Assembly: GCA_944329205.1 (NCBI GenBank)
Contig: CALVHY010000067.1
Span: 1-38,520, forward strand
Direction of reading: 5' to 3'
DNA length: 38,520 nt
From: an uncultured Bacilli bacterium
Lineage (GTDB): Bacteria; Bacillota_I; Bacilli_A; RF39; UBA660
Shown here: one piece after another, positions 29,079-33,299 of the stretch
Layout of the letters: every line of letters begins with the position of its first letter
How positions within the stretch are numbered: the first letter of the stretch is position 1
Notes under the pieces: generated by a model
What the model saw: the letters and a program-made list of their open reading frames with translations, nothing else
Told to the model about the DNA's origin: nothing
Databases searched by the model: none
Program-made: the position numbers and the translations under genes

Positions 29079-31613
29079 TTATTTTAACTTTTTAAGTTCA
29101 AAAAGAGTATTTATGGCTTCTAAAGGCGTCATGTTAAGAGGATCAAGAGTTTCAAGTTTGGCTCTTAAAGGATCGGTTTTTTCTTCTTCAAAAGTCATAG
29201 CAAGTTGATGAGTATCCGCTTTTTTAGTTAATTTTTTTTCACCATTTTCATAACTGTCTAAGATATCTTGGGCTCTAGCTAGTAATTCTTCAGGCATTTT
29301 AGCAAGTCTAGCAACATGAATACCATAGCTTTTATCGGCAGGGCCATTTTGGACTTTGTGTAAAAAGGTAATCATGTTCCCCTCTTCTCTTGCAGCAACA
29401 TGAACATTTTTAACATTTAAAAATTCACTTTCTAATCTAGTTAATTCATGATAATGAGTTGAAAAGAGAGTTTTACATCTTATGTTTTTAGCAACGTATT
29501 CCAGGATAGCTTCGGCTAAACTCATACCATCAAAGGTGGCTGTACCCCGACCTAATTCATCAAATAAAATAAGACTTTGTTTAGTGGCATTTACAATTGC
29601 ATTCCTGGCTTCTTTCATTTCAACCATAAAGGTTGATTCCCCACTTACTAAATCGTCGCTAGCACCAATACGGGTAAATATTTTATCTATAATTGGCAAG
29701 TTGGCAGATTTAGCTGGAACAAAAGAACCCATTTGGGCCATAATTATGATAATGGCTAATTCACGCATGTAAGTCGATTTACCACTCATGTTAGGACCCG
29801 TGATTAAAAGAATGTCCGTGGTGTTATCCATGATGACATCATTGGGAACATAAGTATCTTGACTTACAGCTTCAATAACCGGGTGTCTTCCTTCGATAAT
29901 TTCAATTTTTGATTCAGTATTTAAAGTAGGCTTAACTAAATTGTATTCGGTACTGCAAACGGCAAGCGAAATTAAAGCATCAATTTCACTTATCACCTCG
30001 GCTGTTTTTTTAATATTTAATACTTCATCCTTGACTTTATGGCGAATTTCATTAAATAATTCATATTCTAATTCAAATATTTTTTCTTCAGCATTTAAAA
30101 TTAAAGCTTCTTTTTCTTTTAACTCCGGGGAAATATAGCGTTCATAATTAGTAAGAGTTTGACGTCTTTCCCAACCCCAAGCTGAATTTACATTTTCCAC
30201 TTGACCTTTTGACACTTCAATATAATAGCCAAATACTTTATTAAAACCTACTTTTAAGTTTTTAATACCCGTACTTTCTTTTAATTTACTTTCAAACTCG
30301 GCAATAAAATCTTTGCCGCCGGAACGAATGCTTCTAAGTTCATCTAGGTCCTTATTATACCCGTCTTTAATTAAATATCCTTCTTTAACACTAAGGGGAG
30401 GATTTTCATAAATACTTTCGCTTAATAAAGTAAATAATTCATCATGGGTATCAAAAGTATAGTCTAAGTTAATTTCTTTGATAATGTCTAAAATACGGGG
30501 TAAAACACTTAGGGAATTTTTTATTTGCAGTAAATCGCGGGCATTTAAATTACCACAGATAACTTTGGCACATAAACGCTCTAAATCGTATATTTGGTAA
30601 AGAAGATTACGCAGTTCATCAGTTTGCATAAACCAAGTGTTGAAAACTTCAATTTTGTGATAACGATTTAGTATTTGTTCTTTGTTTCTTAAGGGATTTA
30701 ATAACCATGATTTGATTTTTCTTGAACCCATGGCCGTTTTAGTTTTATCAAGTAACCATAAAAGAGAGTAAGTTCTTTCTTTTAAACGGAGGGTTTGGGT
30801 TAATTCTAAATTTCTAATAGTATGAATATCCATTTCTAAATATTCACTTTTATTTACAATTTCTACTTGAGAAATGTGGTTTACATCCTTTAATTCCTTG
30901 ATGACTAAATAATAAAGTAAGTGTCTAATTCCTTGTTTTACTCTTACATCTTCAACAGAATTAATCAAGTGTTCATAACCACTAGTTAGATAATCAGGAG
31001 AAATTGATACTTCAAGGCCATAAGTGTTTTTTAAAGTATGTATTAAGGCAGCATCATTACTGTTTTCTAATAAGACTTCTTTAATGTTTAAGTGTAATAG
31101 TTCATTCGTGAGGCTTTCTTGGTTATGGGCTAGACTTAAACTTTTTAGTTCACCGGTGGAAATATCAGCATAAGTAATTAAATAAAGATAATTTAAATCA
31201 AGAACACTGGCAATGTAATTGTTTTCATGTTCGTTTAAAGATTCTAAATTTATAACCGTCCCTTTTGAGATGACATCTACTACTCCTCTTTTAACCGTGC
31301 CCTTAGCATTTTTGGCATCTTCTAATTGTTCACATATAGCTACTTTATAACCTTTATCAACTAATTTTTGAATGTAAGGTTCAACACTGTGGAAGGGTAC
31401 TCCACACATGGGAACGCGCTCTTTTAAACCGGCATTCTTACCGGTTAAAGTTAGTTCTAACTCCCGGGAGGCAATAATTCCATCTTCAAAAAATAATTCA
31501 TAAAAGTCCCCTAAACGATAAAATAGTAATTCATTTGGATATTGATCTTTAATTTCCATGTATTGTTTCATCATTGGACTTAATTCGTCTTTGTTTACTT
31601 CATTTCTTTTCAT
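29079..31613 (-). CDS. mutS: DNA mismatch repair protein MutS
   Basis: An 844-residue MutS1 that recognises mismatches. The N-terminal mismatch domain starts SPMMKQYMEIKDQYPNELLF, with FYRLGDFYELFFEDG providing the Phe-x-Glu mismatch-contact motif in the usual shifted form. The lever and clamp domains follow. The ABC ATPase has Walker A TGPNMSGKSTYM, signature-region STFMVEM, Walker B ILFDELGRGTATFDG and the FSTHYHEL switch. The C-terminus ends with a short helical tail. MutL is not next to it in this window. It is transcribed from its own promoter downstream of a candidate small RNA. Confidence 0.98.
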   Translation of the reverse strand: MKRNEVNKDELSPMMKQYMEIKDQYPNELLFYRLGDFYELFFEDGIIASRELELTLTGKNAGLKERVPMCGVPFHSVEPYIQKLVDKGYKVAICEQLEDAKNAKGTVKRGVVDVISKGTVINLESLNEHENNYIASVLDLNYLYLITYADISTGELKSLSLAHNQESLTNELLHLNIKEVLLENSNDAALIHTLKNTYGLEVSISPDYLTSGYEHLINSVEDVRVKQGIRHLLYYLVIKELKDVNHISQVEIVNKSEYLEMDIHTIRNLELTQTLRLKERTYSLLWLLDKTKTAMGSRKIKSWLLNPLRNKEQILNRYHKIEVFNTWFMQTDELRNLLYQIYDLERLCAKVICGNLNARDLLQIKNSLSVLPRILDIIKEINLDYTFDTHDELFTLLSESIYENPPLSVKEGYLIKDGYNKDLDELRSIRSGGKDFIAEFESKLKESTGIKNLKVGFNKVFGYYIEVSKGQVENVNSAWGWERRQTLTNYERYISPELKEKEALILNAEEKIFELEYELFNEIRHKVKDEVLNIKKTAEVISEIDALISLAVCSTEYNLVKPTLNTESKIEIIEGRHPVIEAVSQDTYVPNDVIMDNTTDILLITGPNMSGKSTYMRELAIIIIMAQMGSFVPAKSANLPIIDKIFTRIGASDDLVSGESTFMVEMKEARNAIVNATKQSLILFDELGRGTATFDGMSLAEAILEYVAKNIRCKTLFSTHYHELTRLESEFLNVKNVHVAAREEGNMITFLHKVQNGPADKSYGIHVARLAKMPEELLARAQDILDSYENGEKKLTKKADTHQLAMTFEEEKTDPLRAKLETLDPLNMTPLEAINTLFELKKLK

Positions 31614-31637
31614 ATTAACCTCTTTTACTACTTCCCT

Positions 31638-31665
31638 ATTATACCATTGTTAAATTTTTTTGCAA
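31638..31665 (-). promoter_or_regulatory. Promoter of mutS
   Basis: Minus-strand TTGCAA (31660-31665), a 16-bp spacer ending in TGG (extended -10) and TATAAT (31638-31643), placed directly downstream of the preceding terminator's T run. Confidence 0.7.
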
Positions 31666-31666
31666 A

Positions 31667-31697
31667 GAAAAAATGTGGGAATTTAAAGGAATCCCAC
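31667..31697 (-). terminator. Terminator of the candidate small RNA upstream of mutS
   Basis: Stem GTGGGA / TCCCAC with an 11-base loop followed by ATTTTTT on the minus strand. It lies between two promoters, so it does not end a protein-coding gene. Confidence 0.75.
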
Positions 31698-31769
31698 TAA
31701 TGAAAATTGAAACATTCCCGCCCATATATAAAAGAAATAAAGCTATATAGGCAGGATGTAACTATTTAT
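31667..31769 (-). ncRNA. Candidate small RNA of about 100 nt between rpe and mutS
   Basis: A strong promoter (31776-31803) and an intrinsic terminator (31667-31697) bracket about 100 nt without any ORF. mutS has its own promoter further downstream. The RNA has a 12-bp hairpin with two G-U pairs (31744-31755 with 31717-31728; CCTGCCTATATA on the transcribed strand), a short AATG/CATT hairpin and the terminator hairpin. I do not recognise SRP RNA, 6S, tmRNA, a T-box or a known riboswitch in it. Confidence 0.55.
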
Positions 31770-31775
31770 GTAATC

Positions 31776-31803
31776 ATTATAACATAAATATAGGCCGTGT
31801 CAA
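31776..31803 (-). promoter_or_regulatory. Strong promoter of the candidate small RNA
   Basis: Minus-strand consensus TTGACA (31798-31803), a 16-bp spacer ending in TGT (extended -10) and consensus TATAAT (31776-31781). Confidence 0.8.
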
Positions 31804-31830
31804 TAGGTTTTGTTCTTATAGCCTGCATTT

Positions 31831-32463
31831 TTATTGTTTTAATTCGTTAATTTGGGTTTGATAATCAGCTGATTTACAAATGAAGGTGCCACTTACAGCG
31901 ATATCTAGGTTAGGTACTAATTTGATGGTATCAGCATTAATGCCCCCATCCATTTCTATTTCAAAAGTTAAATGATTGGTATTTCGAAAATCTTCTAGTT
32001 CTTTCAGTCTACTTACCGATTCTAAAAGAAATGCTTGACCGCCGGCGCCGGGAGCTACACTCATGATAAGTACTAAATCGACTAAAGCTAAGTAAGGCAT
32101 TAATTCATATAAATCAGTATGAGGTTTAATGGATAAGCCTACCCCAATGTTATGTTCTTTAATTTTCTCAATTGTTTTTACGACATCTTTAGTTGCTTCT
32201 ACGTGAAAAGTAATATATTTAGGCTCTAACTTGGCAAGATCATCGATATAAATAATAGGATCAAATACCATTAAGTGAATGTCTAACGGTTTCTTGTGAT
32301 TTTTTAGTAATTCTAAAACTTCGGTGATAGTAAAGTTTTTTTCGGGAACGAATCCCCCATCCATTAAATCAACATGAAGATAATCAGCTGTAGTTGCTTC
32401 AATCAACTTTATGGTTTGTTCTTTAGAATATTTACTACTTAAATAAGATACTGATATTTTCAT
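31831..32463 (-). CDS. rpe: Ribulose-phosphate 3-epimerase
   Basis: A 210-residue TIM-barrel epimerase of the pentose phosphate pathway, interconverting ribulose 5-phosphate and xylulose 5-phosphate. The conserved segments are DYLHVDLMDGGFVPEKNFT with the metal/catalytic aspartate, LDIHLMVFDP, YITFHVEA, LVLIMSVAPGAGGQAF and EMDGGINADT. The position after rsgA copies the B. subtilis prpC-prkC-rsgA-rpe order. It is the last gene of this operon; the gap behind it holds no protein gene. Confidence 0.95.
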   Translation of the reverse strand: MKISVSYLSSKYSKEQTIKLIEATTADYLHVDLMDGGFVPEKNFTITEVLELLKNHKKPLDIHLMVFDPIIYIDDLAKLEPKYITFHVEATKDVVKTIEKIKEHNIGVGLSIKPHTDLYELMPYLALVDLVLIMSVAPGAGGQAFLLESVSRLKELEDFRNTNHLTFEIEMDGGINADTIKLVPNLDIAVSGTFICKSADYQTQINELKQ

Positions 32464-32474
32464 TTAATCACCTA

Positions 32475-33299
32475 CTACTTTATAAAATTACAATAATTTT
32501 CATATCTTGAAGATAAAATATTACCTTTTTTAACTTGTTTTTTTATCTCGCAATTATTCTCTTTCGTGTGCATACAATTTTTAAATTCACAAGTATAATT
32601 AGAAAACTCTTTAAAGGAATCTCTGATTTCTTCTTTAGAATATTTAGTTAAATCTAAAGCAGAAAAACCAGGAGTATCAGCAAAATATATATTATGAACA
32701 AAGAAAAATTCTGTATGCCTGGTTGTGTGGCGGCCTCGGCCTAAAGCTTCACTGATACTTCCCGTTTTTAAATTTAGCTTGTTATCAATTTTATTAAGTA
32801 AACTGGATTTGCCAGCTCCTGTTTGTCCGGTTAAGACAACAACTTTTCCCTTTAAAGTTTTAAGCAAAGGTTTTAATTTTTGGTTCGTATATACTTGAAA
32901 TCCGAGTTTTTGATAATACTTCATGATTTTCTTTAACGCTTTTAATTCCGCTTTATTTAATAAATCTAACTTAGTAAAGCAAAGGACTGGTTTAACTTTG
33001 GCTAAAATAATATTACTGATTTGTTTATCTAGTAAATATAGGGATAAATCCGGCTTTTTTACACTGGTAATGATTAAGGCAATGTCGACATTGCTAATGC
33101 TGGGCCGGGTAAGTTCGTTTTTTCTGTCTTGAATTGTTAAAATGTAATGTTTTTGCGGATCAATTTGGACTTTATCACCGACAAGAGGGGTAAGATGAAT
33201 ATTTCGAAACTTACCCCGAGCTTTACATTCATAATATGTCTCTTTTACTTTTACTGTATAAGTATCACTGATATTTTTGACAATTATGCCTTCTAACAT
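32475..33299 (-). CDS. rsgA: Ribosome small-subunit-dependent GTPase RsgA
   Basis: A 274-residue circularly permuted GTPase acting in 30S assembly. An N-terminal OB fold is followed by G4 (TKLDLLNK), then G1 (TGQTGAGKSSLLNK) and G3 (DTPGFSALDL), the permuted order typical of the family. A C-terminal zinc site has cysteines and histidine in CEFKNCMHTKENNC. It overlaps the end of prkC by 7 bp, so translation is coupled to the kinase gene; RsgA is a known substrate of PrkC-type kinases in B. subtilis. Confidence 0.96.
   Translation of the reverse strand: MLEGIIVKNISDTYTVKVKETYYECKARGKFRNIHLTPLVGDKVQIDPQKHYILTIQDRKNELTRPSISNVDIALIITSVKKPDLSLYLLDKQISNIILAKVKPVLCFTKLDLLNKAELKALKKIMKYYQKLGFQVYTNQKLKPLLKTLKGKVVVLTGQTGAGKSSLLNKIDNKLNLKTGSISEALGRGRHTTRHTEFFFVHNIYFADTPGFSALDLTKYSKEEIRDSFKEFSNYTCEFKNCMHTKENNCEIKKQVKKGNILSSRYENYCNFIK

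Follow-up and report, generated by a model that had tools for sequence, protein, structure and literature searches.

Between rpe and mutS, the window analysed here (the whole 38,520-nt stretch of contig CALVHY010000067.1 from an uncultured Bacilli bacterium) carries a promoter and a terminator bracketing about 100 nt, which raises the question of what this unit makes and on what its product might act. The sequence-only reading had proposed an independent small RNA (sRNA) gene, with a double-consensus TTGACA and extended TATAAT preceding about 100 nt without an open reading frame (ORF). The promoter indeed matches at 12 of 12 positions along with TG-n, on the minus strand, and is the sole such site among nine promoter-like sites in 30500-32500, weaker sites being at chance level there (9 versus a shuffle mean of 10.0). 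No ORF of at least 60 aa overlaps 31614-31830; a hidden small ORF (ATGTTTCAATTTTCATTAGTGGGATTCCTTTAA) was considered and set aside, its ATG not being conserved in one relative's locus (L040). The features of the locus are as follows:

31831..32463, minus strand: rpe, the upstream neighbour and the more constant flank
31798..31803, minus strand: -35 hexamer TTGACA of the sRNA promoter
31776..31784, minus strand: extended -10, TG-n-TATAAT (TATAAT at 31781-31776), with a 16-nt spacer to the -35
31668..31769, minus strand: inferred transcript of ~102 nt, its +1 set ~7 nt past the -10 by sequence reading
31716..31756, minus strand: hairpin 1, UCCUGCCUAUAUA (31756-31744) pairing with UAUAUGGGCGGGA (31728-31716) in 13 pairs, with a pyrimidine-rich loop
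31698..31713, minus strand: unpaired linker GUUUCAAUUUUCAUUA, the putative seed, complementary to start codons of the surface-protein family described below
31675..31697, minus strand: terminator stem GUGGGA / UCCCAC with loop UUCCUUUAAAU, able to pair with a Shine-Dalgarno sequence
31668..31673, minus strand: terminator T run
31638..31666, minus strand: separate mutS promoter (TTTGCA, 17 nt, TATAAT), its -10 ending at 31638
29079..31613, minus strand: mutS, the downstream neighbour, outside the unit

The T run abuts the mutS -35 as had been described, with one base between it and TTTGCA, and the 12-bp hairpin with G-U pairs is present with arms CCUGCCUAUAUA and UAUAUGGGCGGG. The region 31771-31655 folds at -30.5 kcal/mol (z = -5.2), with none of 200 shuffles as good, and the predicted fold places the linker mainly between the two hairpins. 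A terminator scanner listed no terminator, the 11-nt loop exceeding its maximum of 8. Judging from the strength of its promoter, the RNA would be abundant.

With MutS as the query, we gathered 80 loci from relatives; the genomes are all metagenome-assembled and are labelled uncultured Bacilli, Mycoplasma and similar. It was via these loci that the conserved unit was located, and not via a plain DNA search, which across 145 genomes of the bacterial family returned, outside the window's own genome, only short AT-rich chance matches. A BLAST search of the relatives' loci with the unit as query recovered it at 80-93% identity in L034, L066, L032, L033 and L035; L039, L040 and L041 have a form conserved in part, with only the terminator region kept in L038. 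The 5′ part of the unit takes two forms among relatives: the commoner has a hairpin of the type CCUGCCUAUAU-loop-AUAUGGGCGGG, and the remaining relatives have unrelated hairpins at the same place. In an alignment of hairpin 1 confined to the first form (18 sequences, 16 of them distinct, with the G402 row slightly misaligned), 95.7% of the cells are paired, three pairs show changes in both partners, and the covariation score is higher than in 500 out of 500 shuffles and in all slid versions. The constant part in every form is the linker GUUUCAAAUUUCAU ahead of the terminator, which is nearly invariant while the flanks and loops diverge, 11 of the 12 positions of its core being invariant across nine loci.

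A model of the linker and terminator (R2) matched 23 of 36 genomes of the genus at E <1e-3; one of these (G303) has promoterless copies only, so the stand-alone unit is counted in 22, and it is missing from 13-14 of the 36. Among 386 genomes of the bacterial family, R2 reached E <1e-3 only in the five sampled members of the genus, with matches in 42 further genomes of that family standing at E 0.016-0.5. A TTGAC[AT] element lies 16-17 nt before TATAAT in 21 of the 22 loci, and rpe lies upstream in 18. Thus, promoter, hairpin, linker and terminator occur together in 22 of 36 genomes with the next gene varying, which bears out both the proposed independent sRNA gene between rpe and mutS and its conservation in sequence and structure among relatives. 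We are highly confident that this is a conserved, genuine sRNA gene. At the sequence level it has the marks of a trans-acting sRNA, namely its own promoter, an intrinsic terminator, the lack of an ORF, and a seed, unpaired and conserved, that is complementary to translation initiation regions.

The linker itself points to candidate targets: GUUUCAAAUUUCAU is the reverse complement of AUGAAAUUUGAAAC, and some weak R2 matches in genus-mates are the opposite strand of the start site AUGAAAUUUGAAAC, which encodes MKFET. Across the 36 genomes, there are 48 occurrences of the pattern ATGAAANTTGAAAC, as compared to 10 of a reversed control pattern; 24 are sRNA or 3′-UTR copies and 24 lie elsewhere. 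When 21 of these 24 non-sRNA sites were inspected, 16 proved to be starts of one paralogous family of surface proteins anchored in the membrane, one the start of another membrane protein, and four unrelated or very short. The family combines a short, basic N-terminus with a single transmembrane stretch and an outer part of ~450 aa with a weak match to DUF6273 (E 0.0005 and 0.078, under the curated cut-off); an AlphaFold model of one member has a mean pLDDT of 45. It amounts to 10-77 tblastn segments (E 1e-5) per ~1-Mb genome across the 36 genomes and to 72 segments (E 1e-3) in the window's own 1.07-Mb genome, where segments are not equivalent to genes as one gene may yield two. The window's contig contains no members; several family copies lie at contig ends, which suggests that they break assemblies. 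The window's genome has no exact 14-nt target, only imperfect sites. Going by this complementarity, the starts of the large surface-protein family are very probably the targets of the linker. The family start sequence is also found in genomes without the sRNA (six sites in G387, five in G399, and one each in G389 and G404), and is thus not maintained by it. The six and five family genes of G387 and G399 (L219-L225) have near-identical leaders and exact MKFET/MKIET starts.

In some relatives, related modules are also found in the 3′ UTRs of the family. G303 has five promoterless hairpin-plus-linker copies with differing terminators behind genes with family-type C-termini, and a hairpin-linker model (R3) gave 6-23 matches in each of ten more genomes (G097, G400-G403, G407-G410 and G412), many just behind family genes, along with five weak matches in other genera (E 2e-4 to 0.05). 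By a simple hairpin finder, the module follows 10 of 15 family genes versus 5 of 139 controls in G402 and 14 of 21 versus 0 of 139 in G412; in G409, which we do not count as a carrier, the finder gave 2 of 11 versus 3 of 142, and the module is seen by eye in most listed 3′ flanks. The same finder detected none behind the family genes of G000, the window's genome (0/11), G218 (0/17) and G398 (0/16), and the window's genome has the stand-alone RNA only. The G402 copies include a 3′-UTR motif complementary to a start region, comparable to the icaR type discussed below: the linker GAAACUCCAUGAUAGA forms 16 bp with the start of the family member MEFQTL at -24.3 kcal/mol, the second best of 158 starts reaching -12.9 kcal/mol. 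AAACUUCAU and AAAUUCCAU, found in the copies of G401 and G415, are likewise reverse complements of possible starts, and the 3′-UTR linkers of G412 show no start complementarity. The MKFETL members of G402 (L289 12207-13802) and G412 (L308 18297, minus strand) are without the module; what follows them instead is a different, shared 3′ flank that includes an inverted repeat (GGTTCAAAATGACTCTTCATTTTGGACC in G402), and downstream of the G402 gene is a ribosomal-protein operon.

These copies lend some credence to the explanation that the stand-alone unit derives from a surface-family gene now lost, whose 3′ end has decayed or moved and happens to lie behind a promoter, the linker match then reflecting ancestry and not function. 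The modules behind family genes in G303, G402 and G412 fit such a descent, whereas a near-consensus promoter in 21 of 22 loci and the near-invariance of the linker amid diverging flanks and loops do not; further, the stand-alone copy persists in G000, G218 and G398 although no family gene there has the module. Hence, we consider such a relic unlikely and favor a functional sRNA directed at the family starts.

The pairing of each genome's own linker with start regions (-15 to +20) was compared between family and other genes in parts of six genomes. In G000, the 12 family starts have a median of -10.9 kcal/mol versus -5.7 for 155 controls, an AUC of 0.861; the AUC is 0.983 in G218 (18 family starts versus 55 controls), 0.848 in G398 (15 versus 48), 0.899 in G402 (11 versus 147), 0.920 in G409 (10 versus 146) and 0.901 in G412 (24 versus 144). 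Out of 300 shuffled linkers, none reached the AUC in G000 and G218, three did so in G398, one in G402, two in G409 and one in G412, though the family being homologous, these statistics overstate independence (distinct starts number 9 of 12 in G000, 4 of 10 in G409 and 7 of 24 in G412). A first pass with a wider interval had given AUCs of 0.94 in G000 (0 of 200 shuffles) and 0.62 in G402, the latter owing to miscalling of the frequent TTG starts and rising to 0.899 after recalling. The start recall rule was applied to family genes only, with controls retaining their earlier start calls, and family genes with an unplaceable N-terminus were excluded (15 to 11 in G402, 12 to 10 in G409, 20 to 18 in G218 and 16 to 15 in G398). 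In G402 (L285, L286, L290 and L292-L294), TTG is apparently the start codon of many family genes instead of ATG.

In a scan from -200 to +400, the best site coincides with the start for 35 of 56 family genes (6/12 in G000, 12/18 in G218, 10/15 in G398 and 7/11 in G402), where ~5 of 120 offsets would count as start-site hits. With the linker alone, the best pairs in G000 reach -11 to -12 kcal/mol and four of the 12 members do no better than -6.6. Most members in G409 and G412 show modest pairing (medians -8.0 and -7.2), and medians as low came from 77 and 10 of 300 shuffled linkers, respectively. Many of the substitutions among family starts are A-to-G, which G-U pairing tolerates.

The strong pairing of a few non-family starts (e.g., -15.1 kcal/mol in G402, -13.1 in G398 and -12.4 in G412) might be taken to mean that the sRNA has other targets, with the surface family appearing as a by-product of a common AUGAAA-type start. 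Against this, the control starts, many of them also AUGAAA, pair worse in all six genomes, and the best-separating 17-nt segment along the RNA overlies the linker in G000, G218, G398 and G402 (32-35 segments each), with one over the loop of hairpin 1 separating nearly as well in G000 (AUC 0.863). Other targets of this kind thus appear improbable as the main explanation, and the family starts stand as the preferred ones.

The linker of the window differs from the common linker by one base (A to U), and the window's family starts with M(K/E)I, not MKF. This substitution, putatively a compensating one, ranks first among 42 single changes, with a mean own-family pairing of -9.34 kcal/mol versus -7.39 for the common linker; the second-ranked change is practically equal at -9.32, and the first rank is a single event. 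For the families of G218 and G398, the common linker is the better partner, ahead of the window's variant. In linker swaps, the common linker pairs slightly better with the families of G402 and G412 than do the variants of these genomes.

The neighborhood of the unit bears on whether it could instead be a cis-acting leader, i.e., a riboswitch or attenuator of the downstream gene, as the succession of hairpin and terminator ahead of mutS might suggest. Across the 22 loci, the next gene is mutS directly in six, a 156-aa protein in eight, a DUF1848 protein in two and none of these in six; the lack of a fixed association indicates that the unit is not a mutS leader, and with rpe mostly upstream it appears to travel as an independent gene beside rpe. 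Moreover, mutS owns a promoter past the terminator, and this promoter is kept where the unit is absent or elsewhere. A riboswitch or attenuator for mutS is thereby rejected, and a leader of any downstream gene is very improbable. In L034, the 156-aa gene intervenes between unit and mutS promoter, and 21 bp of the window's unit-mutS junction are matched before mutS; hence, the loss or gain of this gene would account for the T run touching the mutS promoter in the window. The 156-aa protein (L034 4461-4931) has no Pfam match, separates the sRNA from mutS in 8 of 22 loci and is absent from the window. Lastly, a diverged housekeeping RNA (6S, SRP RNA, tmRNA or RNase P RNA) might be expected to have a strong promoter and ~100 nt, but it is scarcely credible here given that R2 matches at E <1e-3 are confined to the genus among 386 genomes of the bacterial family, that the unit is missing from 13-14 of the 36 genus genomes, and that, in agreement with the sequence-only reading, Rfam 15 gave nothing at gathering score across the entire window and, at lax thresholds, only seven matches below the cut-off within 31600-31850, each at E 3 or more and thus attributable to chance.

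Returning to the sRNA with family starts as its targets, we consider it likely, on the strength of sequence complementarity, that it acts in trans and independently of Hfq to repress many surface-protein mRNAs at the start codon. In such a mechanism, the linker (14-16 nt) would pair over the start codon, covering AUG and ~11 nt, and the terminator loop (CCUUU or CUCC) would contact the Shine-Dalgarno sequence, which is probably covered too. Co-folding with the best targets of G000 and G412 predicts a two-part duplex (net -17.2 and -16.1 kcal/mol), in which the start codon is bound by the linker and the Shine-Dalgarno sequence (AAAGAGG, AAAGGAGUU) by the arm of the opened terminator together with its loop (CCUUU or AACUCC). 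For the best targets of G218, the terminator remains closed and the linker alone pairs. Co-folding separates family from control starts with AUCs of 0.83 (G000), 0.92 (G218) and 0.87 (G412). From these models, we infer that a block of translation at initiation is the likeliest effect: ribosome binding would be prevented, and RNase III may afterwards cleave the sRNA-mRNA duplex. Hfq (PF17209) was found in none of the 36 genomes, as against Hfq-bearing control genomes that do match; hence, the RNA would act without Hfq or with another partner. In the window's genome, most or all members of the family would be damped together.

By analogy, the RNA would act as known sRNAs that block start codons do. 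Among published cases, the closest we found is that of the FopS sRNAs of Bacteroides thetaiotaomicron, which are described as 14 sRNA paralogues with a protein, RbpB, that pair near the start codons of SusC-family mRNAs and block translation (PMC11697453). Compared by description, both systems set sRNAs of a gut bacterium against a large paralogous surface-protein family. However, they belong to unrelated phyla, most genomes here have one stand-alone copy in place of 14 paralogues and RbpB, and in some relatives target-family genes also carry the module in their 3′ UTRs. In the icaR mRNA of Staphylococcus aureus, a 3′-UTR motif pairs with the ribosome binding site to give an RNase III substrate (PMC3868564), which resembles what the 3′-UTR copies of G402, G401 and G415 could do. 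Yet, that pairing is within one mRNA, whereas the 16-bp match in G402 is to the start of another member and the window's copy is a separate gene. In Giardia, miRNAs are described as repressing the whole repertoire of variant-specific surface proteins (PMC3937270), but there the machinery is eukaryotic, with Argonaute, and the target sites are spread along the ORF. The trans-encoded sRNAs predicted in Mycoplasma (PMC5088518, again compared by description) are likewise from small, low-GC genomes and have multiple predicted targets. Searches of the open-access literature for the lineage or for a similar bacterial system turned up no account of this RNA. It would be a new sRNA family outside Rfam, with a known kind of action and an unusual relation to the 3′ UTRs of its targets in relatives.

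An additional element of the window's genome is a locus (L431, G000:C49, 4416-6256, minus strand) coding for a MutS-domain-I-like protein, a bAvd-like protein (PF22296) and a 375-aa reverse transcriptase, a composition as in diversity-generating retroelements (DGRs). RVT_1 is found in 34 of the 36 genomes, and no template repeat was found near the Avd-RT cassette of the window's genome. DUF6273 proteins are reported as DGR targets in phages (PMC10743442). We offer only as a speculation, which we ourselves rather doubt, that a single RNA module silences a variant surface repertoire both as a stand-alone repressor and, in relatives, as copies in the 3′ UTRs of the family's mRNAs, such that one expressed member could silence its siblings. 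If true, DGR-made variants would stay under control by virtue of their constant start site.

The 3′-UTR copies in relatives suggest a route by which such an sRNA may originate in the family it targets, or spread to it. More generally, the unit would provide a new sRNA family recognizable by a covariance model and with a concrete candidate target rule, namely 14 nt over the start codon. It would thus offer a handle on the post-transcriptional, Hfq-free control of the surface repertoire in an uncultured lineage with ~1-Mb genomes and dozens of copies of the family.
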